Assembly (NCBI RefSeq): GCF_003130405.1
Contig: NZ_QEAS01000009.1
Span: forward strand, 1-64,000
DNA: 64,000 nucleotides
Reading direction: 5' to 3'
Origin: Pararcticibacter amylolyticus
GTDB lineage: Bacteria; Bacteroidota; Bacteroidia; Sphingobacteriales; Sphingobacteriaceae
Position numbers and translations under genes: made by a program. Under the pieces are notes generated by a model. The model did no database searches. It saw only the letters and a list, made by a program, of their open reading frames with translations, and had not been told where the DNA came from. Shown piece by piece: positions 19,196-35,468 of this stretch (its first letter is position 1; the number at the start of each line of letters is the position of its first letter).

Positions 19196-20137
19196 TTACC
19201 CAAACCTTTGCTCCAACCTCCTGGCCAAATCTAAAATGTCATCCAGCCTCGCCAACTGACTGATCCATTTTTCCGGAATAGATTCATGACCGTAAAGTAT
19301 TCCTGCGAGTCCTCCAGTGACAGCCCCGGTTGTATCTGTATCACTGCCCAAATTAACAGCTTTCAGAACAGCGGCGGAGTAGCTTTCGGTAGTAAGCAAA
19401 CACCAGATACTTGCCTCAAGAGTGTGCAGTACATACCCGGAACTAAAAATATCTTTCTCTTCCAGGGCAGAAATATCTCCATGGAAAAGACGCTTAAAGA
19501 CATTTATTTCTGCTTTATTAATTCCGATTGAATTAAGATAAGACGGGACAGTTTCCTGAAGCAAATAATACGTTTTGATCATGTCTTTGCTCTCTCTTAA
19601 TACCCTTGCAAATTCCAGATAATAAAAACAAGCGATGACTGACCTGATATGCCCATGGGTAACGGAGGATACTGCTCTTGTTAATGTAAATCTTTCTTCT
19701 ATTGGCTTATCCTTCACGTAAATGAGGAGAGGCAGAATTCGCATGAGCGAGCCGTTTCCATTTTCCTCTTCATAAAAGCCACCGGCCAGGTCAGGGCGTA
19801 CACCTGTTTTCAACCTGTTAATTGCCTCCTTCGTGGCAATTCCAATATCGAAAACTGAACCATATGGGGTCCAATAGTTATTGTACGCCCAGTCTTGGAA
19901 TTTCGAAGAAATCGTTTCCATGGAAAACCCTTCAATCAGAGCTTCCGCGAGACAAAAGGTCAGTGAACTATCATCAGACCAGGTACCTGGAGGTAAATTA
20001 TACGTACCGTTTCCAGTCATCTCCGTTACCGGTCGTTGCGCAATATCTTCTCTATCTTTAAATTCTACCGGAACCCCCAGAGCATCACCGGTAGCAACCC
20101 CCAGGAGGAAATCTTTATAAATATTATCCTTTGTCAT
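19196..20137 (-). CDS. ADP-ribosylglycohydrolase family protein
   Basis: A DraG/ARH-type enzyme expected to cleave ADP-ribose from proteins or small acceptors, using two metal ions. With the longer start the protein is 317 aa and shows GDALGVP (21-27), TWSDDSS (56-62), and the C-terminal metal-binding LGSDTDTTGA (267-276). I choose the ATG that opens MTKDNIYKDF; a GTG 12 bases upstream is also possible and would leave only 2 bases after the NadR stop. It is the last gene of an eight-gene overlapping run. Next to NAD salvage genes it could recycle ADP-ribose or reverse ADP-ribosylation. The family is clear, the substrate is not. Confidence 0.9.
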   Translation of the reverse strand: MTKDNIYKDFLLGVATGDALGVPVEFKDREDIAQRPVTEMTGNGTYNLPPGTWSDDSSLTFCLAEALIEGFSMETISSKFQDWAYNNYWTPYGSVFDIGIATKEAINRLKTGVRPDLAGGFYEEENGNGSLMRILPLLIYVKDKPIEERFTLTRAVSSVTHGHIRSVIACFYYLEFARVLRESKDMIKTYYLLQETVPSYLNSIGINKAEINVFKRLFHGDISALEEKDIFSSGYVLHTLEASIWCLLTTESYSAAVLKAVNLGSDTDTTGAVTGGLAGILYGHESIPEKWISQLARLDDILDLARRLEQRFG

Positions 20138-20151
20138 GCGTAAATTCACTT

Positions 20152-21168
20152 TTAAGAACTGCCTGAAGCAGCATAAAGTTCAGAGTTATTTCGAGCCAGC
20201 AAGCCATCAATGCATCTGACGGCGTGTTCAAACCTTGCATTCCAACCTCCTCCTATCTCTATAAATTTCACACCTGCTTCCTTCAGGATCATTCTGTGTG
20301 AAATATCCAGCCCGTTACGGTCTTCAAGATTCATTCTTGTTCCGTCCTGGACAAATGGAACATCATTACTGAGGTATAAATAAAGTTGAGCCTTGTTGTC
20401 CTTCAAAACCGAATCATCCACATACAAATCCTTCTGAAAGACGAACCTGGAGTAAGATCTTATAATATGAATATCGGTATCTATGATGATCAGCGGATGA
20501 TCGCCGCCTGCTGCATTATTTATTCTACAAGCGTGTTCTTTTGCAACTAAGATCAAGTCTTCATAACAAAATTCCTTTGAGTCAGGAATAAGCTCCCTTC
20601 CTGCTTCTGAAACCAAATTACATTGATAGTGAAGGGAAAGCCTTTCTGCGAGAGTAGATTTGCCGGTAGACTCAGTACCTAGTATCACTACTTTCAATGC
20701 GAAGAAATGTCTGGAAGCTTTTGCCAGGAACTCCCAGTTTTCAGATGGATTCGTTCTTATCTGCGACGCCGAGATAGGTATAAGCTTTCTTTCCCTGTCG
20801 AACAGAATATGCCGGATATTCATAAACGCCGCAACGTAATCACCGTAAGGCTCAGAGGTAACAACGAGACTGTAATCAGGAAAGATCTCTTTGAAACGAA
20901 CAGACCAAAGCTGTGAGACGTGCTCTGAGGATTCCGAGGTATTCGGCAGTTCGCTTTCTTTGTAGTTCAATATATGTACATCCATATTGGGCACATCCTT
21001 GAAAGTACTTCCAATCCAGGCCTTTCTTATTGTACCCTCCACCTTTTCCTTATCACTACAGCATACTAATACAGAAAGAAAATCACATTTTGTCAAGGCG
21101 AAACGAATAAGTGCTTCGTGCCCTTTGTGAAAAGGAAGAAATTTTCCGAAAACAAATGCTTTAATCAT
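20152..21168 (-). CDS. nadR: NadR-like bifunctional NMN adenylyltransferase / ribosylnicotinamide kinase
   Basis: A two-domain NAD-salvage enzyme of 338 aa. The N-terminal nucleotidyltransferase (about 1-155) has GKFLPFHKGH (8-17) and ISASQIR (132-138), the ATP- and NMN-binding motifs of NMN adenylyltransferases. The C-terminal kinase domain (about 158-330) carries a Walker A loop GTESTGKST (164-172) and a DTD motif in IIIDTDIHII. Together they would convert nicotinamide riboside to NMN and then to NAD. The N-terminal DNA-binding domain of enterobacterial NadR is absent, so this form should be purely enzymatic. The gene overlaps pnuC by 8 bases, the classical transporter-enzyme pair. Confidence 0.92.
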   Translation of the reverse strand: MIKAFVFGKFLPFHKGHEALIRFALTKCDFLSVLVCCSDKEKVEGTIRKAWIGSTFKDVPNMDVHILNYKESELPNTSESSEHVSQLWSVRFKEIFPDYSLVVTSEPYGDYVAAFMNIRHILFDRERKLIPISASQIRTNPSENWEFLAKASRHFFALKVVILGTESTGKSTLAERLSLHYQCNLVSEAGRELIPDSKEFCYEDLILVAKEHACRINNAAGGDHPLIIIDTDIHIIRSYSRFVFQKDLYVDDSVLKDNKAQLYLYLSNDVPFVQDGTRMNLEDRNGLDISHRMILKEAGVKFIEIGGGWNARFEHAVRCIDGLLARNNSELYAASGSS

Positions 21169-21793
21169 TACTTACCTGTTTTTTCCAATACAGGAGTCCA
21201 TAAATTGCCATTCCCAAAAATACAAGGTATTCCAACGCTAAGAAATAAATTCCTTTAACGGAATAAAGTACCACACAAATCAGGTCTATAGCAATCCAGA
21301 AATACCAATTATCCAGCCTTTTGCGCGACAAGAGCAGGGTTGCGGCGATGCTTCCAACCATAACCAGGGAATCAACATACGGAAATGCGGCTGGCATCTT
21401 AAAGTGCTGAGGCATATAAACGTGCAGATTTTGCACCATAAAGCCTGCCGGCAGCGACAACAGCAGAATGAGGAATATTGTTATAACAAGAGACTTCCTG
21501 CGCAGAGTAGTGATTCTGCTTTCTGTTGTTTTTGAGTTCCAGTGAAACCAACCATATAATGTTACTATAAAAAAGTAAACCTGCAGAAACATATCGGCAT
21601 ATAGCTGAACCTGGAAAAAGAGAATGAACAGAAAAAGCTCGTTGATGACCCCTGAGGGCCAGGTTAGGATGTTCGCTTTCGATGCATAAAATACAGATAG
21701 CAACCCGAAAAGAGTGCCTATTAACTCTACGTAGCTAAGCGGATAATTCCAAATGTTAAAGGCAATACTTTCAATATCAAAAAAAACACTCAT
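21161..21793 (-). CDS. pnuC: PnuC-type nicotinamide riboside transporter
   Basis: An inner-membrane facilitator for nicotinamide riboside, 210 aa with about seven hydrophobic helices. Early in the protein is the family's WNYPLSYVELIGTLFGLLSV beginning. Near the end, DNWYFWIAIDLICVVLY carries the conserved W-x-x-W-x-x-x-D pattern that lines the PnuC binding pocket. It overlaps the upstream adenylating-enzyme gene by 4 bases (ATGA) and the downstream nadR-like gene by 8 bases. Uptake is driven by phosphorylation of the riboside by the kinase domain of that partner. Confidence 0.93.
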   Translation of the reverse strand: MSVFFDIESIAFNIWNYPLSYVELIGTLFGLLSVFYASKANILTWPSGVINELFLFILFFQVQLYADMFLQVYFFIVTLYGWFHWNSKTTESRITTLRRKSLVITIFLILLLSLPAGFMVQNLHVYMPQHFKMPAAFPYVDSLVMVGSIAATLLLSRKRLDNWYFWIAIDLICVVLYSVKGIYFLALEYLVFLGMAIYGLLYWKKQVSND

Positions 21794-23160
21794 CGGGATC
21801 CTAAACTTGAAAAATCACTGGTATAGGCGACAACCTTTTCTGAAAGATCACTTCCTGCACTATTCAATTTTATACTTATTTGAACCTGGCCGAATATATC
21901 CAGTAAATCAGATGAGATCTGCCCGCAAACATCTTCATTTGTCCAACCTTCGAACTGAAGCGAGAGGTTTTCAGACTGATGCAGTCTGAATCCGGAGAGC
22001 GGATAGCTGGTCATTTTTCTTGAGATGTCAATAGTGTTGACCACCGCCCCTTCCAAAGAATAGAAGATTGTTAGTTTGCGTGCTCCCAGGTCTTCTAAAT
22101 AAGGTACTCCGTCTTCAATTTTCAGGCAGCAGAAATCTCCGGTCCGGTATCTTATTAGCGGAAGAAAGGGATTGTTTCCTCCGCTAACCACCAGTTCTCC
22201 CCTTTCACCGTAAGGCAAGGGTTCATCCTTTTCAGGATGGAATATCTCCAGGTAAAGCTCCGGGCGAATAGCCCGGTATTTATTACCGACGGAAACTGCA
22301 ATATTACGGCATTCAGTTAAGGAATAAACATCAAGAACCGGAGCATTAAAATAACCTTCCAGCTTTTCTTTTATCCCATCATTTAATTTCATAGCGGATG
22401 AGATCAATGCTTTAGGAGAGATCCCAGGCTTAAGTTTTAGAAGTGCCATAAAAGCAAAGGGATCGCCCGTTAAAACTTCAGGGTTGTATTTTTCCAGATA
22501 TTTGACAGGGTGAGAAGGATCCTTCCATTCTGCAGTGTTAAGATTCAGTTTCAAAATACCCGCCCCATTCAGGTAAGTGGATAATGAAGCGTAGGTTAGG
22601 GTTGTTGCCTGAGAACAGATAAGTGCTATAGCTACTTTCCGTCCCTGCTCTCCGATAAATACACCGTACTCGTCCAAGATACTCTGCATTTGAGGGAGCC
22701 AACACGCCTGTGAAACGGGATCAAAAAGAACATCCAGAGGAGCTCCGGTAGTTCCTGAAGTTTGATATACCAGAAGGTCATTTAACTTTGCTTTTTCCGA
22801 CACAAACAACCAGGGCTGCCTCCTGATATCCTCCCGGGTAATGCATGGCTGTGAGCGAAACTCCCCTGACCGGTATTTATAGAAAGGAACCTCTGCTGTA
22901 CAGGATTCCCAATACTCCTCAAGCCAGTCAGGCTGCTGGTTTTCATCCCAGAACCTGCGTGCCGCCCTGATGTTCAATGCATACTGTTCTACTTCCTGAA
23001 GATGATGAGCGGTTATGCGGTCGCCACTCATAAAGTTGAAGTTAGGAGCCCATTCATCCTGTCTCAGCTCATGCAGCAAAGAGATGTCATTCAAAAGCGG
23101 AAATCTCTCTGTATCGCTCAACCCTATCCGCGGGCCTTTATTATTCTCTTCCATAAACAT
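21790..23160 (-). CDS. PaaK-like adenylate-forming enzyme
   Basis: A member of the acyl-adenylate superfamily resembling phenylacetate-CoA ligase, about 456 aa. The ATP-binding P-loop is YQTSGTTGAP, the central motif is YSLTECRN, and the late motif is IRYRTGDFCC; a smaller C-terminal lid follows. The open frame runs upstream to 23226, deep inside the preceding gene. I prefer the ATG at 23160 (MFMEENNKGPRIG), which leaves a 20-base overlap typical of this run of genes; an ATG at 23154 is equally possible. The acid it activates is unknown. PaaK-like enzymes are unusual partners for pnuC and nadR genes, so its role here is an open question. It may make an acyl-AMP or acyl-CoA used by the same pathway. 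Confidence 0.82.
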   Translation of the reverse strand: MFMEENNKGPRIGLSDTERFPLLNDISLLHELRQDEWAPNFNFMSGDRITAHHLQEVEQYALNIRAARRFWDENQQPDWLEEYWESCTAEVPFYKYRSGEFRSQPCITREDIRRQPWLFVSEKAKLNDLLVYQTSGTTGAPLDVLFDPVSQACWLPQMQSILDEYGVFIGEQGRKVAIALICSQATTLTYASLSTYLNGAGILKLNLNTAEWKDPSHPVKYLEKYNPEVLTGDPFAFMALLKLKPGISPKALISSAMKLNDGIKEKLEGYFNAPVLDVYSLTECRNIAVSVGNKYRAIRPELYLEIFHPEKDEPLPYGERGELVVSGGNNPFLPLIRYRTGDFCCLKIEDGVPYLEDLGARKLTIFYSLEGAVVNTIDISRKMTSYPLSGFRLHQSENLSLQFEGWTNEDVCGQISSDLLDIFGQVQISIKLNSAGSDLSEKVVAYTSDFSSLGSR

Positions 23161-23716
23161 TCGCTGCTTCACGTGCTTTCTGCTCAGCCATTTTTCGACG
23201 GATCTCCACCATTCGCTCAAAAGCATCGGAAGATTCTTTTAAAACCTGCTGGCGCTTGATGGTACTTAAGGCATCCAGCCGGTCTGCTGCTTCAATTTCA
23301 GATTCTCCGTCCGGCAAAATACCACAACAATCCAACGCTGCACGGACAAACTCTTCGTTACGGTCTTCATCCTCAATCCACTGTCCCGTATCAACATAGT
23401 CTGCTAGTTCAGGTAATTTCCTCAACATAAAAGTCGTGATACCTGCAAGTAATCCCGGCTGCCTGTGAAAAGCCTCATAGGAGAAAAACCAACAGGAAAC
23501 TTGAATGGCAGTACGCGACTTCTCCTCCAGCTTACTCAGTATCTCCTTATCAGGGATCGCATTCTCTTCTAAAAGTAAATCACCCGAAACCAGCCGGAAA
23601 CAATCTGCAACTAAAGCATAAGTATGAATACTCCCATGCTGGAACTGTGAAGTTCCAGCAAAAAACACTTCAGGACAGCTCCTAAGGTGGGATAAAAGGG
23701 AATAAAGATCAACCAT
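23141..23716 (-). CDS. Unrecognised 191-aa protein of the MoxR/vWA operon
   Basis: I do not recognise this protein. It appears soluble, with no signal peptide and no membrane helix. The N-terminal half mixes predicted strands and helices (EVFFAGTSQFQHGSIHTYAL). The C-terminal third is rich in charged residues and probably a long helix (about 150-191, TIKRQQVLKESSDAFERMVE and onwards), compatible with a coiled coil. It overlaps the metallopeptidase-vWA gene by 8 bases and the adenylating-enzyme gene by about 20 bases, so it is surely co-translated with them. Its size and position suggest an adaptor or small subunit of the MoxR/vWA complex, which is inference only. Confidence 0.8.
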   Translation of the reverse strand: MVDLYSLLSHLRSCPEVFFAGTSQFQHGSIHTYALVADCFRLVSGDLLLEENAIPDKEILSKLEEKSRTAIQVSCWFFSYEAFHRQPGLLAGITTFMLRKLPELADYVDTGQWIEDEDRNEEFVRAALDCCGILPDGESEIEAADRLDALSTIKRQQVLKESSDAFERMVEIRRKMAEQKAREAANVYGRE

Positions 23717-25472
23717 GGCCCTGATTTTTGATCTGCTTTGAATGGTAATTGGCAGCTGAAAAGCTACGTGCGAAATCCAGCAACTCTTTTTCGTTAGTTA
23801 CATAATAAATCTCCCAGCCCATTTGCACCAAACGCTTTACTTCGTTACGGTGCCAATCAGGCCGGGAATGCAGAACCAGTGTCCCATGCCCACCGGCGTT
23901 TTTTAGAGACTGTTCAATGATATCCCAATTACTTTCCCCTGTTTTTGTTTCGGCAGAAAGCATACTGAAAATATCGTCATCAGTTACGACAATAACATGG
24001 GATTTGTCTTTCACCGGAAACCCGAAAGGCGTTTTAAGGCGAGGTATTCCATAGGCATACCCTGTTCCAAGATATGAGGTAAGAACAGTAAGCACCTCTT
24101 TTTCAGATGTACTATACCCCTCACTCTCCAGAAAACTACCCGGTTCGCCGGAAAGGCAGGCCATCACTTTTGCCCCGGCTCTTAAAGCCGAGAGCCCGAT
24201 AATGGCAGCTGCCAGCACAGGCCAGGAAAAAGTAAATCTGGGATTGCCCATGGATCCTGAACAATCTACACCAATATACACATTCAGGGGACTTGAGACA
24301 CTTGAGCTATCATTATCCGGGCCATAAACTCTCTTAACAGTACTGTATCCCGGAATAAACTCGGGAGATTGAACAGCTGATTCCAGCCAGTCTATTTCAT
24401 CAGGGGAATCTCCGAAATCCCAATTACCTGTCCCCTCAGGGAGATTATAGGATACCGGATTGATTTGCTCTACCGGAAAATCAACCAGATGAGGGAGTGC
24501 AATTTCCCGGTAATAATTATTTAACAGCTCCTGCTCATCCAATACAGGATTAATTTTTCTGAGAAGGTCAATATAAACACCAGGTTCCAGGTATCGCTGT
24601 TGAGGACCGGTTCCTCCCCGTTCTGATATTCCTATACCATTTGCTGGAATTTTATCTTCACCCCTGATCCCCAAGGCCTCTCTTCGGGGATCTACATTTC
24701 CCTTGACGGCTTCATCGTCGATTTCTGTAATTCCCGCAATTATACTGCCATTTAAACCGGCGGCTTCTGCATCCAGATAGATCAACATAGACAATCTTGC
24801 CTTCTGATATTCTTCATCTTCCAGGATATAGGGGAATAATAAAGCAGTAAAACGACCGGCTCCATCGAGCCAGTTCCGGGAGTAGCTTCTTATCAGCGAG
24901 GCAAGCAGTGACGCATCGGCGTCGATAGATGGACTTTGAAAATGGGAGGATCCCGTCAGCATTCCACGGCTGAGTCTCCACAAATACTCATAGGTGCGCA
25001 TCAGCAATGTCCAAAGCTTCGAAAATTCGATGCCTTTATTCACCTTCTGATATACGACCGCCATATCCAGGCCTTTGGACCTCTGAAGCATATCGTTGAT
25101 CAGGAAGTCGGAATATATATTGGCCACAAAAGCAGTCCGGTTTTCTATACCCGCCAGTCCCCATTGAATGCGCGACAGTAGGATTGCATTATCATGAAGA
25201 TTGGCGGGAGTGTAAATATGATGACCAATTTCATGTGCCAGTACCTGCAGTGCACATCCGCCTACGTCAAGCTTTAATACTTCTTCCAGATCAATCACGA
25301 TCCGGTGATCAGATAAACGTATCATGGCAAAACTACCTGTTAGGCCTTCTTTTCTTGCTTCCGATGAACTAAGGCACCAAACAGGCTCCCTAAGTTTTAC
25401 AAAAGGGCTCCAGGTTGTGCGGGCCTTATCCCACTTGGATTGCCAGTTCTGCTTAAGAATCTCTGCTGTCAT
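23709..25472 (-). CDS. Metallopeptidase-like / von Willebrand A domain fusion protein
   Basis: A 587-aa cytoplasmic protein. The N-terminal part has a zinc-protease signature AHEIGHH (His80, Glu81, His84), followed 35-50 residues later by FVANIYSDFLINDML, which may supply the third ligand. The C-terminal part (about 395-575) is a vWA domain with an intact MIDAS: Asp403, Ser405 and Ser407 in DCSGSMG, Thr470 in LGTGYAYG, and TDDD at 497-500. This order resembles proteins described as putative metallopeptidase (PF13203-like) plus VWA-like domain (PF09967-like), which often neighbour MoxR ATPases; that is recalled, not searched. It shares one base with the upstream gene stop (TGATG) and overlaps the next by 8 bases. 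A MoxR-driven, metal-dependent protease or chaperone is inferred. Confidence 0.85.
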   Translation of the reverse strand: MTAEILKQNWQSKWDKARTTWSPFVKLREPVWCLSSSEARKEGLTGSFAMIRLSDHRIVIDLEEVLKLDVGGCALQVLAHEIGHHIYTPANLHDNAILLSRIQWGLAGIENRTAFVANIYSDFLINDMLQRSKGLDMAVVYQKVNKGIEFSKLWTLLMRTYEYLWRLSRGMLTGSSHFQSPSIDADASLLASLIRSYSRNWLDGAGRFTALLFPYILEDEEYQKARLSMLIYLDAEAAGLNGSIIAGITEIDDEAVKGNVDPRREALGIRGEDKIPANGIGISERGGTGPQQRYLEPGVYIDLLRKINPVLDEQELLNNYYREIALPHLVDFPVEQINPVSYNLPEGTGNWDFGDSPDEIDWLESAVQSPEFIPGYSTVKRVYGPDNDSSSVSSPLNVYIGVDCSGSMGNPRFTFSWPVLAAAIIGLSALRAGAKVMACLSGEPGSFLESEGYSTSEKEVLTVLTSYLGTGYAYGIPRLKTPFGFPVKDKSHVIVVTDDDIFSMLSAETKTGESNWDIIEQSLKNAGGHGTLVLHSRPDWHRNEVKRLVQMGWEIYYVTNEKELLDFARSFSAANYHSKQIKNQGHG

Positions 25473-26440
25473 CAGTTAATCTCAGGATAATTATAAATAA
25501 ATAAGTAATGGGACGAACTTCTGGTAATAACAACGCTTGAATTGAGGGTTACACAGGATGTCATGTCGTCAAAACACAAACGAATGTTCAAATCCTTTTC
25601 GGTGAATGGCTTTGCAGGCAGAACTGAGGCGGAAGTTGTTACCCTTTCGGTCGCTAGCGGAACATCCCTGATCAAAACAGTTCCCAGTGCATCGGCAAAA
25701 AGGGCACAGCAGGTATTTCCGTCTGAAGCCACGATCCGGCCATTTAAACCGGCAACTAAAGGAGGACGGGTAAATGCATTTCCATAACCGTGAAAACCAC
25801 CTGCCACTCCTTGAAATTTAAATTTCGCCGCGTCAGTCCAGGGGTGATTTAAAAGATCATCGGGAGAAGCTGGAAGCTTCTCACTCTTCATGACAGTCTT
25901 TATTTCTTCGGCAAGCCCAGGGTATATCATAATCGCCTTTTCACGAAGATGAGACATCCCGCACAGCCATGCTGTTATCCGTCCGCAATTTAAAAACTCA
26001 ACTGTAGTTTTACAGTAAATCGCGGTTTGGCCCATTAATCGGATCCAGTCTCCCACCCTTCCTGGCTGGTACTGCCTCAGAGAGAGTAAAGCCGAATTCA
26101 GGGCATTGATCATCCTCTGAGGTTGCTTTGCAATCAACCCGGGAACCAGGCCGCAGAGTGACCAGGCCTCCTCGTACTGCCGTTCATAAGTTAAAGAAAG
26201 GTTACCTGTGAGCAAAGACAACAAGCTGACGTAAAAAGACTTAAACACAACAGGAAGAGATTCGGGAGAAACCTCAGCAGCAGCAGCAACGATTGGTTCT
26301 ACCACCCGGACAATCCATCTAGATAACAGAACGGGATCCATCTTTCCCGACTTCAACTCCTGCTGATAATACAATTGATTATACTCAGCGGCGTTTTCCC
26401 TAAGATATTCAACAAGCGGAGGAAATGTTATTTTTTCCAT
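25472..26440 (-). CDS. Unrecognised 322-aa protein between MoxR ATPase and vWA genes
   Basis: I do not recognise this protein. The first two thirds (about 1-195) look all-helical with many leucines, possibly a repeat or scaffold fold (ALLSLRQYQPGRVGDWIRLM). The last third (about 205-322) turns to glycine-rich strands (FQGVAGGFHGYGNAFTRPP and GRIVASDGNTCCALFADAL) and could be a small beta domain. There is no signal peptide or membrane helix. It overlaps the ATPase gene by 13 bases and shares one base with the vWA gene. Its place between MoxR and vWA partners is where MoxR-vWA-associated proteins are often found, but I cannot show homology. Confidence 0.82.
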   Translation of the reverse strand: MEKITFPPLVEYLRENAAEYNQLYYQQELKSGKMDPVLLSRWIVRVVEPIVAAAAEVSPESLPVVFKSFYVSLLSLLTGNLSLTYERQYEEAWSLCGLVPGLIAKQPQRMINALNSALLSLRQYQPGRVGDWIRLMGQTAIYCKTTVEFLNCGRITAWLCGMSHLREKAIMIYPGLAEEIKTVMKSEKLPASPDDLLNHPWTDAAKFKFQGVAGGFHGYGNAFTRPPLVAGLNGRIVASDGNTCCALFADALGTVLIRDVPLATERVTTSASVLPAKPFTEKDLNIRLCFDDMTSCVTLNSSVVITRSSSHYLFIYNYPEIN

Positions 26441-28017
26441 TGCAGCCAGCGTTTGTAGTTACTGTATCGCTGATAGTAATATTTCAGTTTAAGAATGTCG
26501 TCGGCACGGTATCCATATAGTTTTTTCTCCTGCGACCATTTATACAACTGTCTTTCAATATCCTGGAGGCGCTGTTCAACCTCCCTCAGCGTGACATTTT
26601 CAAGGCCTTGTTTAAAGTGTACATCAAACTTATCCATCGGATCATTCCGGTCGAGATCCATACTCAGGTACTCCTGGCAGGAGATATCGAATATCTTCCG
26701 GAGCCAGACAATTTTGTCTACCCGGTACTTTTCATTACCCGGCTGATCGAAAAAGGGAGATTCCAGATGAGGAGAGAAAGTGTCATGCAGTACAAAAGGT
26801 AAGATCTGCCGGATATCTTCCAGTTCCACCTGCTTATTGCCCCGGAAATAGGCCAACGCTTTGGAGAAGATCAGAAGAGTGGTGATTTTGCGCACGGAAA
26901 CACCATTCAGAGTTTGAGAGCCCAAATCTTTCACCTGGTCTTTTCCTGTCTCCTGCCGGAACAATGTTTTGAAATCCATCGCGGAAAGCTTCACAGTGTC
27001 CTTCGTCATATATTCGAGCCTGTCAGAAGCGGGCTCAAAGAACTCAAACTGCCGGCAGAAAAATTCAATCCGTTTACGCAACTCATCGGAAATCCGGATA
27101 GCCCTTAGCTCTTTATTGATCTGGTTTAATTCCTCCTCCGAAAAGATGATCTCCTCAGGGATCATTGACTCAGGCTTAAAATTAAGTTCTATCCGTTTAA
27201 GCAGGTCGTCAATGAAACGTGTATTGAAATGAAAAGCCCGGATAACAATATCAATCCTGTCTTTCAAGGCCTCGATTACCTGGTAAGTTCCTCCTCCCGC
27301 ATCATCATTTGCTGTAAGATACCATGCCGAAGGGGGACATTCAAAGATCTGGTCGAATATTTCAGCATAATTGTCGGAAAGAACTGTCAGTAAAGCCGAT
27401 TGAGTTCTTGTGGGAATACGGTTATATTCATCAATGATTTTCACATTCATGCCCAGCCATTTTCTCCAGGCGATACGGATGTCGGAGGTTTTTTCTGCCT
27501 TTACCATGTCCGCCGGCAGAGGATGCCCTAAAAGATCTGCTATTGTCATTTGCGGCTGACCATGCTGAATAGCACGCATTACATCAGTTTTTGTATATCC
27601 GGCCAGCAAACCCATCAATACACAGGTTGCTGTCTTTCCCCTTCCCGGACCACCTACTATGAGGCATTTGCCTCTTACTATTAAATTTAAAAGCGGAACC
27701 AGCACAAAGCTGGAATAACTTTGCCCTTTAGGTAAGCTTAGTTGTACCTTGCTATCTCCGAAGCTAAACTGCCTGGGGTCTCCTTCATCGTACTCTATAT
27801 CGTAAAAAGGACTGATAATGGCGGTATTGCTTATCCAAAAGTAAGCTTGCCGCAGCTTCTCATCCAGTACTGTTCCTGTGTGTTCCTCAGCATAGCCCTC
27901 CTCTCCGGAATATAGATCCTGAATATCGAAACGTTCCGGAGCCGGGGTTTCCTGCGGGTTCGTTGGAGCAGAGGGGACCTTTTGAAAGATCCCTAATGTT
28001 TTATTTAGAAAGTCCAT
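26428..28017 (-). CDS. MoxR-type AAA+ ATPase
   Basis: A 529-aa AAA+ ATPase of the MoxR branch and the first gene of the eight-gene run. Walker A GGPGRGKT (122-129), Walker B VKIIDEYNR (192-200, Asp196-Glu197), sensor 1 YLTANDD (Asn237) and an arginine in LKDRIDI (Arg254) are all present. An unusual N-terminal extension (about 1-95) and a long C-terminal helical part (about 380-529) make it larger than typical MoxR proteins of about 330 aa. The C-terminal segment is rich in charged helices (LREVEQRLQDIERQLYKWSQ). MoxR ATPases work with vWA proteins as chaperones or metal-insertion and activation machines, and a vWA partner lies two genes downstream. Confidence 0.9.
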   Translation of the reverse strand: MDFLNKTLGIFQKVPSAPTNPQETPAPERFDIQDLYSGEEGYAEEHTGTVLDEKLRQAYFWISNTAIISPFYDIEYDEGDPRQFSFGDSKVQLSLPKGQSYSSFVLVPLLNLIVRGKCLIVGGPGRGKTATCVLMGLLAGYTKTDVMRAIQHGQPQMTIADLLGHPLPADMVKAEKTSDIRIAWRKWLGMNVKIIDEYNRIPTRTQSALLTVLSDNYAEIFDQIFECPPSAWYLTANDDAGGGTYQVIEALKDRIDIVIRAFHFNTRFIDDLLKRIELNFKPESMIPEEIIFSEEELNQINKELRAIRISDELRKRIEFFCRQFEFFEPASDRLEYMTKDTVKLSAMDFKTLFRQETGKDQVKDLGSQTLNGVSVRKITTLLIFSKALAYFRGNKQVELEDIRQILPFVLHDTFSPHLESPFFDQPGNEKYRVDKIVWLRKIFDISCQEYLSMDLDRNDPMDKFDVHFKQGLENVTLREVEQRLQDIERQLYKWSQEKKLYGYRADDILKLKYYYQRYSNYKRWLQWKK

Positions 28018-28254: not shown

Positions 28255-29517
28255 CTAATGGCCCTCGTGTTCTTCACTGTTCTTTAATTTTGACAAGAGG
28301 TCGTAGGTTCCTTTCAAAACTATTGTTCCCTTGTAATCTCTGCCTGCGGGAAGATCCACCTGCACCAGCTCTCCGTCCGCGTTCCCGGTTGTCACCGCAA
28401 CCATCTCGAAGTAGAACATTTTTTCTTCTCCGGCAGAAGGCTCTGCTTTTTCAGCAGTTTCTTTATCGTCATCACCATCCCGGTGTGTTCCGTTTTCGTG
28501 TTCCGGAGCGTCCGTTGCTACAAAAATGTATTTCTTACCCTGAAAATCCGTTACTGCGCTTTGAGGCAGGGTTAATGCGCGGATTTCGCCAGTTTCAATG
28601 AATGCCTTCAGGTAAGTGTTTGGAATGAATGAGTTGCCTCCATCGGCAATAGCGTGTACAGTTATGGTCTTATCCGGTCTGATTTCACGTCCTGCCAGTT
28701 GAATCCTGGCATAGCGTTCAGTCGTCTCTCCAGCCAGTGTAAACCGAACGCGCTGTCCCGGTTTCACGAGTTCCGCATCCTTTTCAAAAACATTCAATTC
28801 AACATGGAGGTCGGATCCATCTACGATTTCAAACATCACATCGTTGGGATTGACAAACTTTCCTGCATTTACATTCACTTTCGTCACATAACCGGTTGCA
28901 GGAGAATAAATATTAATCCAGCTGCGAATACCGGAAGCGGTGAGCGACGAAGCCTGAATATTGATCAGTTTCAATCGCTGACGCAACGCACTTTCTCTGG
29001 CCTGAGCGATCTGGTATTGGGACTTTGCCTGCTGTAATGTCTTTTGGGAGTTCACATTCTGGCTAGCGAGGGTCTGTTGCCGCTGGTATTCTGCTTCTGT
29101 AAGAGACAGCTGGCTTTTGCTCTCCAGGTAATCCTGCTGAAGCTGCACATAATCCTGGTTCTCCAGAACAGCAATTACCTGTCCTTTTCTGACAGAGCTT
29201 CCCTGCAGCAAGGGGGTTGATTTTACAATCCCTCCCATTTGTGTGGTAATACTTATCAAGCCCTGAGGCGGCACGTCGATATAACCTGTCACTTTAAGCT
29301 GGCCGCTGATCGCTTTCATTTCAGCGGAGCCCAGCACAATACCGATTGATTGATACTGGGCCTTTGTAATTTCAGCGACATTTTCGTTCTCAGTATGATT
29401 TTCTTCTGCAGCTGTCTCCCCGGAGTCAGCAGTATTCCTGTTTCCGCAAGCCTGCAGGAAGAGCACTAAGATCAATACAGCTGCAAGTGTTAAACGTTCA
29501 TTAATTTTCTTCTTCAT
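28255..29517 (-). CDS. Heavy-metal efflux RND periplasmic adaptor (CzcB/CusB-like lipoprotein)
   Basis: The periplasmic membrane-fusion subunit of a tripartite metal exporter, 420 aa. A lipoprotein signal ends in FLQAC (Cys24). A lipoyl-like half motif (ITTQMGGIVKSTPLLQGSSV), an alpha-helical hairpin (about 125-195, rich in Q, S and A), the second lipoyl half (INIYSPATGYVTKVNVNAGK) and beta-barrel domains follow. Near residue 330-360 is an inserted acidic, His-containing stretch (EHENGTHRDGDDDKE), and the protein ends EEHEGH; both could bind metal. It lies 10 bases after the CzcA-TolC fusion gene and is the last gene of that operon. Confidence 0.9.
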   Translation of the reverse strand: MKKKINERLTLAAVLILVLFLQACGNRNTADSGETAAEENHTENENVAEITKAQYQSIGIVLGSAEMKAISGQLKVTGYIDVPPQGLISITTQMGGIVKSTPLLQGSSVRKGQVIAVLENQDYVQLQQDYLESKSQLSLTEAEYQRQQTLASQNVNSQKTLQQAKSQYQIAQARESALRQRLKLINIQASSLTASGIRSWINIYSPATGYVTKVNVNAGKFVNPNDVMFEIVDGSDLHVELNVFEKDAELVKPGQRVRFTLAGETTERYARIQLAGREIRPDKTITVHAIADGGNSFIPNTYLKAFIETGEIRALTLPQSAVTDFQGKKYIFVATDAPEHENGTHRDGDDDKETAEKAEPSAGEEKMFYFEMVAVTTGNADGELVQVDLPAGRDYKGTIVLKGTYDLLSKLKNSEEHEGH

Positions 29518-34820: not shown

Positions 34821-35468
34821 ATGACTGAAGAAAACCAAATCTTACATCAGCAAAATACTTCCCGTATTGAACTAACAAAGCTTGAATTCCCTATCTCCTT
34901 TCAGTTCAGGATAGGAACCTTTGCCAATGATTTTATTGCAAAGGATGCTTCCGGCCGGACAATCGCTTATGTGCGGCAGAAGATGTTCAAACTCAAAGAA
35001 GCCATCATGATCTATTCCGATGAGAGCAAGACGGAGCTGCTTTATCAGATCAAAGCGGATCGCTGGATAGATTTCAATGCGAACTATGCCTTTTCTGATA
35101 GCAAAGGTGCAATGATCGGCAGCGTAGGCCGTAAGGGGATGAAATCCATCTGGAAGGCGAGCTACCAGATCTTCGACTCAGGAAAAAATCTTGATTTTAA
35201 TATCCGTGAAGAAAACCCCTGGGCGAAAGTTTTCGATTCCCTGCTGTCCGAAGTTCCCCTGGTCGGGTTGTTTACCGGTTACTTGTTTCATCCCAGATAT
35301 GCCGTTACAAATGCTCATGGAGCAGCTATTGCGTGCTTATCAAAAGAATCATCATTCTTCGGAAGAAAATTCAGAGTGGACAAACTGGCTGACATAGATT
35401 CGCGCGACGGCGAGCGCATCCTGCTTGGATTGATGATGATGATCTTACTGGAGCGGCGGAGAGGATAA
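34821..35468 (+). CDS. LURP-one / phospholipid scramblase-related protein
   Basis: A 215-aa protein that appears to belong to the tubby-like LURP-one-related (scramblase-related) fold. It shows repeated short strand-turn units: FRIGTFANDFIAKDASGRTI, MIYSDESKTELLYQIKADRW and YQIFDSGKNLDFNIREE. They end in a hydrophobic helix (LLGLMMMILLERRR) like the buried C-terminal helix of that family. There is no signal peptide. Bacterial members are poorly characterised, so a lipid- or membrane-associated role is only suggested. It stands alone on the plus strand and converges with an AraC regulator. Confidence 0.7.
   Translation: MTEENQILHQQNTSRIELTKLEFPISFQFRIGTFANDFIAKDASGRTIAYVRQKMFKLKEAIMIYSDESKTELLYQIKADRWIDFNANYAFSDSKGAMIGSVGRKGMKSIWKASYQIFDSGKNLDFNIREENPWAKVFDSLLSEVPLVGLFTGYLFHPRYAVTNAHGAAIACLSKESSFFGRKFRVDKLADIDSRDGERILLGLMMMILLERRRG

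Follow-up and report, generated by a model that had tools for sequence, protein, structure and literature searches.

Within a 64,000-nucleotide stretch of the genome of Pararcticibacter amylolyticus (hereafter the window), eight minus-strand open reading frames (ORFs) at 19196-28017 bring together a MoxR/vWA pair, an adenylate-forming enzyme, a transporter and an enzyme for the salvage of nicotinamide adenine dinucleotide (NAD), and an ADP-ribosylglycohydrolase. The ORF list of the stretch confirms all eight genes, and their junctions, computed from gene 1 to gene 8, are overlaps of 13, 1, 8, 20, 4 and 8 bases followed by a gap of 2 bases, which becomes 14 if gene 8 starts from an alternative ATG instead of GTG; another gap, of 237 bases, separates gene 1 from the ORF upstream, which ends at 28255. 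This layout agrees with that of the original prediction, a reading of the bare sequence which had further proposed that NAD supply and ADP-ribose removal serve or control the MoxR/vWA machine. Genes 1-7 form a conserved cassette, with a core made of the MoxR, 322-amino acid (aa), HExxH-vWA, 191-aa and PaaK-like genes, and because the content and order of this core are kept in 12 genomes, its arrangement is not a product of chance.

The genes of the core

The core starts with gene 1 (26428-28017), a MoxR-type AAA+ ATPase of 529 aa. Its match to the AAA_3 profile (30.9 bits, E 3e-7) lies above the curated cut-off, and its Walker A (GGPGRGKT), Walker B (IIDEYNR), sensor (YLTAND) and arginine finger motifs are intact in 12 of 12 homologues, with identities of 77-92% across two families; the protein also has a long, conserved C-terminal extension, a weak similarity to BchD-ChlD and a weak match to the solved MoxR 2r44 (E 4e-7). 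MoxR/vWA pairs are ATP-driven remodellers, and the putative vWA partner is encoded here by gene 3 (23709-25472, 587 aa), which combines an N-terminal zincin-like motif, HEIGH at residue 80, with a C-terminal vWA domain having an intact metal-ion-dependent adhesion site (MIDAS; DCSGSM...GTGYAYG...TDDDIF). HExxH and all three MIDAS motifs recur in 15 of 15 homologues. Since gene 3 reaches no Pfam family above cut-off (VWA_2 only with E 0.09), and none in NCBIfam, PADLOC or PHROGs, the name of HEIGH-metallopeptidase plus vWA given to it earlier rests on these motifs, which are indeed present, and not on family membership.

Two proteins of unassigned family accompany this pair and are confined to cassettes among the loci read. 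Gene 2 (25472-26440, 322 aa), conserved in 12 of 12 cassettes, is the fastest-evolving member of the core, with about 31% identity between families. Gene 4 (23141-23716, 191 aa) ends in a tail, AREAANxYGRE, that is invariant in all 12; its last few codons are shared, in a different frame, with the beginning of gene 5, thereby producing a short double-coding stretch within 23141-23190, and this dual coding may add to the conservation of the tail. A HetE-N match in the 191-aa protein (E 0.0034, in 4 of 12 homologues) was treated as chance, as were matches to BLF1, Tcp11 and DUF7432.

Gene 5 (21790-23160, 456 aa) encodes a PaaK-like adenylate-forming enzyme; its ORF opens at 23226 (478 aa), and homologues favour the start at 23160. 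The enzyme matches the AMP-binding profile (E 1e-11) and, by profile, solved PaaK-type ligases (E 1e-15), with core motifs in 12 of 12 homologues, and scores below the NCBIfam equivalog cut-offs for PaaK (85.5 vs 300 bits) and DVU_1553 (35.1 vs 646 bits); it is, on these scores, a relative and not a member of either family. Together with those described below for PnuC, NadR and the glycohydrolase, the profile matches confirm the names that the original prediction had given to five of the eight genes.

As to regulation, internal promoters did not exceed those of shuffled sequences, and 15 terminator-like sites were observed vs 10.6 expected. No convincing motif emerged for a shared upstream operator, the only recurrent element being promoter-like, TATATCTTTA, in most of ten loci of the genus g37 introduced below.

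One core, two lineages of NAD genes

The genomes sampled, a capped number, were nearly all from Bacteroidota; other phyla were covered only by searching GTDB contigs for strict peptide patterns, which matched Desertivirga arenae alone. The vWA gene is rare, being present in 2 of 301 genomes from the family of the window, in five clear cases among 395 across the phylum (the window not counted), in 1 of 349 from a family with hundreds of genera (f12), in 3 of 114 from the order of genome G341, and in 9 of 249 from a genus with hundreds of species (g37); we take f12 and g37 to be Flavobacteriaceae and Flavobacterium, respectively. Of 168 genomes sampled for MoxR of the cassette family, four have it, and these four have the vWA gene too; the two proteins occur together in every sampled genome that has either. 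The core is collinear in the window, in Desertivirga and in ten species of g37, which belong to another family. The order in Desertivirga, MoxR-322-vWA-191-PaaK-PnuC-NadR, is that of the window without the glycohydrolase, and the ten g37 loci read PnuC-NadR-MoxR-322-vWA-191-PaaK on one strand, with neighbours that vary except in close pairs. Overlaps are conserved as well, that of 13 bases in 12 of 12 cassettes and those of 8 and of 14 or 20 bases in nearly all. Every cassette has pnuC-nadR next to its core; the pair lies downstream of the core in the two Sphingobacteriaceae but upstream of it in the ten g37 species.

The neighbourhoods of individual copies show some further features. A LURP-one-like gene (215 aa) lies near the cassette both in the window (34821-35468) and in Desertivirga (L003, 17587-18234), reflecting either an ancestral neighbourhood or coincidence. 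IS3-type transposase-like genes stand directly 3' of one copy (L041, 12981-14218). In L039 and L040 (1-7.2 kb) the cassette adjoins a DnaE-like polymerase, a Y-family-polymerase-like gene and an XRE/LexA-like regulator, followed downstream by McrBC-like genes in L040 and by PAAR and VgrG-like genes in L039.

The NAD genes themselves are readily recognised. The cassette PnuC, a nicotinamide riboside transporter (gene 6, 21161-21793, 210 aa), matches NMN_transporter with 176.8 bits (E 5e-52), TIGR01528 above cut-off and the solved PnuC 4qtn. Gene 7 (20152-21168, 338 aa) is a bifunctional NadR, combining nicotinamide mononucleotide (NMN) adenylyltransferase with ribosylnicotinamide kinase: it scores 163.5 bits for TIGR01526, under the cut-off of 341, and matches the solved NadR 1lw7 nearly end to end, with HxGH, ISxTxxR and the kinase P-loop intact in 12 of 12. 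With both sets of motifs present, the pair is predicted to provide a complete route from nicotinamide riboside (NR) to NAD. Import, kinase and adenylyltransferase are those of known PnuC-NadR salvage; here, however, the route is a second genomic copy tied to a MoxR/vWA core.

In evolutionary terms, how did the same core come to carry these genes at opposite ends? Between the two cassette groups identity is 77% for MoxR and 57% for the vWA protein, but only about 33% for PnuC and 26% for NadR. Moreover, a stand-alone pnuC-nadR pair that is 59% identical to that of the window in both proteins is found in G485, a genome without the vWA gene, and is likely to represent the source type of the window pair; in that genome (L126, 9812-11429) it directly follows a TonB-receptor-like gene. 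In the trees of NadR and PnuC the cassette copies fall in two groups with well-supported non-cassette sequences between them, and the window-type pair is sister to that of G485 with 100/100 support and short internal branches. Forcing the cassette NadRs into one clade costs 83 log-likelihood units (approximately unbiased test, p 3.8e-39); some branches in these trees are long, and the exact sister of the ten g37 copies is unsure. Two lineages on one core imply that the pair joined it, or was replaced, more than once: either it was recruited twice, or one pair took the place of another and the side changed, and both courses point to selection for the pairing.

Carriers, in addition, would not strictly need the NR-to-NAD route of the cassette, since they own a second PnuC: each of the 12 genomes has exactly two, the closest non-carriers (in g1 and g37) having mostly one and some relatives in other genera two. 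In the five carriers in which its locus was read, this second, housekeeping PnuC adjoins a kinase without the adenylyltransferase half, and a full two-domain NadR is rare in the phylum (about 12 of 247 genomes). In g37 genomes a large domain of unassigned family is fused to the kinase that neighbours the housekeeping PnuC, giving ORFs of 706-773 aa (L082 6580-8901, L083 3794-5914, L084 4085-6349).

Could pnuC-nadR be an ordinary vitamin salvage pair that shares the operon by chance and is kept because operons seldom break? Free-standing pairs of this kind are common and NAD salvage could be of general use, but this explanation, which we hold to be very unlikely, would have to accommodate two distinct lineages at opposite ends of one core, their retention in 12 of 12 cassettes, and hosts that already own another PnuC. 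On the same three grounds, linkage in every cassette, two lineages and a second PnuC in all carriers, NAD supply is very probably part of the system, and the core and pnuC-nadR are very likely functionally coupled. That NAD supply belongs with the MoxR/vWA genes was part of the original prediction, and it is supported by the joining of two distinct pnuC-nadR lineages to the same core at opposite ends. The outcome that would have counted against it, ATPase-vWA genes usually lacking NAD genes, went the other way: of 15 genomes in which the vWA gene was found, 12 have a cassette that includes pnuC-nadR, and the remaining three belong to one distant genus, g89, where MoxR and vWA are not neighbours.

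Relation to known systems and to defence

RavA-ViaA, NorQ-NorD and CbbQ-CbbO resemble the cassette in joining MoxR and a MIDAS-vWA protein in one operon, with a presumed function in ATP-driven target remodelling or metal insertion; the cassette adds to this scheme an N-terminal HExxH zincin-like domain, an NAD route and three more proteins, the PaaK-like enzyme and the two of unassigned family. Zincin-vWA proteins of DUF2201 (PF13203) share with gene 3 an N-terminal zinc-peptidase-like motif and a C-terminal vWA domain, as well as an adjoining AAA gene in L131. Further similarities are with systems proposed to act in biological conflicts. MoxR-vWA ternary systems, whose third component is VMAP, iSTAND, FtsH or a beta-propeller (eLife 2020, PMC7159879), likewise comprise further conserved components and have a sporadic distribution; however, none of these four components was found in the cassette (genes 2 and 4 searched against Pfam, and PADLOC), and the GXXXTAKS variant of the P-loop in those systems contrasts with GGPGRGKT in the cassette MoxR. 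In anti-ADP-ribosylation systems centred on an ADP-ribosylglycohydrolase (ARG), this enzyme lies near a vWA chaperone and a Nudix/WYL regulator and/or phosphatase (Viruses 2022, PMC9503650). The eight-gene locus similarly has a glycohydrolase near a vWA chaperone and no ADP-ribosyltransferase, but the cassette lacks the Nudix/WYL regulator and the phosphatase, the glycohydrolase is not in the conserved part, and the published description does not include pnuC-nadR.

That glycohydrolase is gene 8 (19196-20149, 317 aa), a protein of DraG/ARH fold with 239 bits for PF03747 ADP_ribosyl_GH (cut-off 26.2, E 9e-71), intact binuclear metal motifs (WSDDS and GSDTDT) and a close relationship to Lmo0067 (8za7, 289 bits). 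It is the only ADP-ribosylglycohydrolase in its genome, and the cassette of the window is the only one of the 12 to include such a gene; the enzyme may add a function or stand there by chance. The check suggested earlier, for conserved gene order across Bacteroidota, thus finds it for the core with pnuC-nadR in 12 genomes but not for the glycohydrolase, and ADP-ribose removal is not supported as a general part of the system.

A machine answering phage, toxins or damage that deplete NAD or ADP-ribosylate proteins, in which PnuC-NadR restores NAD and the glycohydrolase, if present, strips ADP-ribose, would fit the patchy distribution of the cassette, its varying neighbours, the glycohydrolase of the window and the published proposals of MoxR-vWA modules and of ADP-ribosylglycohydrolase and vWA neighbourhoods as conflict systems (PMC7159879, PMC9503650). 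We nevertheless regard a conflict or stress system of this sort as rather unlikely, given that the enzyme in question is missing from 11 cassettes and no effector domain was recognised in the cassette, two of whose proteins match no family. PADLOC found no match in the cassette; the flanks of 11 loci gave scattered matches to defence models, chiefly exonuclease, helix-turn-helix and restriction, in single loci or one closely related pair, and elsewhere in the window two proteins matched a CARF-type model weakly. Phage and plasmid records yielded no copy of the vWA gene, plasmids none of the cassette-family MoxR, and viral contigs none of the vWA, MoxR or PaaK-like genes. Negative searches do not exclude defence, but there is no positive reason for it, and a placement in defence islands found no backing.

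By its testable sequence features the cassette is neither a ternary system of the VMAP, iSTAND, FtsH or beta-propeller kind nor an ARG-centred one. A literature search found no paper joining MoxR with PnuC and no description of the composition of the cassette, in line with the earlier statement that no described system of this exact composition was known; the cassette is filed among MoxR/vWA systems, as a variant for which no earlier description was found.

A putative use for the NAD route

The favoured scheme, built by analogy with known pairs and given a probability of roughly 0.5, is that of a MoxR/vWA machine for protein maturation, with NAD being drawn on by its target or by an adenylating partner. 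MoxR and the zincin-vWA co-chaperone would form a remodelling pair as in RavA-ViaA and NorQ-NorD, a complex that we infer, to remodel a dedicated target or bring it to maturity; the products of genes 2 and 4 could be adaptors helping to recognise this target, or themselves the targets. The PaaK-like enzyme would form the adenylate of an acid. PnuC would import external nicotinamide riboside, which the kinase and adenylyltransferase of NadR would convert to NAD+, and the operon would thus refill what the target or the PaaK-like enzyme consumes as NAD+ or as material derived from NMN or NAD. The possession of a private NAD route suggests, in fact, that the target or a partner uses up NAD or something else that NadR produces. 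The glycohydrolase of the window would be a local addition, perhaps clearing ADP-ribosylated products.

Several observations weigh against this scheme. None of the cassette proteins shows a recognisable NAD-consuming domain. The 322-aa protein has no match in Pfam, NCBIfam, PADLOC, PHROGs or PDB profiles, and the 191-aa protein none above chance in the first four; structure models of the 322-aa and vWA proteins, computed from the window and L003 sequences, had a predicted local distance difference test score (pLDDT) of 37 and 34 and were unusable. Membership of gene 3 in DUF2201 was not confirmed, for it has no Pfam match to PF13203 and hhalign covers only 51 vWA columns, with 37.5% probability. 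Finally, in the three g89 genomes (L047-L049, L015-L017) MoxR (59% identity) and the vWA protein (40%) are encoded on separate contigs, with no other core genes adjoining, so that NAD genes need not lie close by for the pair to act; this suggests an older two-protein system without the cassette.

A different use of the same parts would be the insertion of a metal or of an NAD-derived cofactor, as by NorQD or magnesium chelatase, with the PaaK-like enzyme activating a carboxylate of either the cofactor or a carrier protein. NorQD inserts its metal by a twisting action of the MoxR/vWA pair (PMC13036017), gene 1 is weakly BchD-ChlD-like, and an adenylating enzyme shares its operon with an NAD route in 12 of 12 cases; yet the operon has no apo-enzyme as target, the PaaK-like enzyme has no named substrate and the alignment did not locate its C-terminal catalytic lysine, so that we consider insertion fairly improbable. 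Still more doubtful is a tighter version of NAD coupling, a new kind of machine in which the substrate of the MoxR/vWA-zincin complex would carry or require a group derived from NAD, for instance the invariant C-terminal tail of the 191-aa protein activated by the PaaK-like enzyme, and PnuC-NadR would be obligate.

Returning to the maturation machine drawing on NAD, its interest lies in the fact that MoxR/vWA pairs are widespread and few have a known target. The apparently repeated joining of an NAD-making pair to one and the same core offers a clue to the chemistry involved, that of NAD, which is directly testable, and the case places in one defined Bacteroidota operon two conserved protein families to which no function has been assigned.

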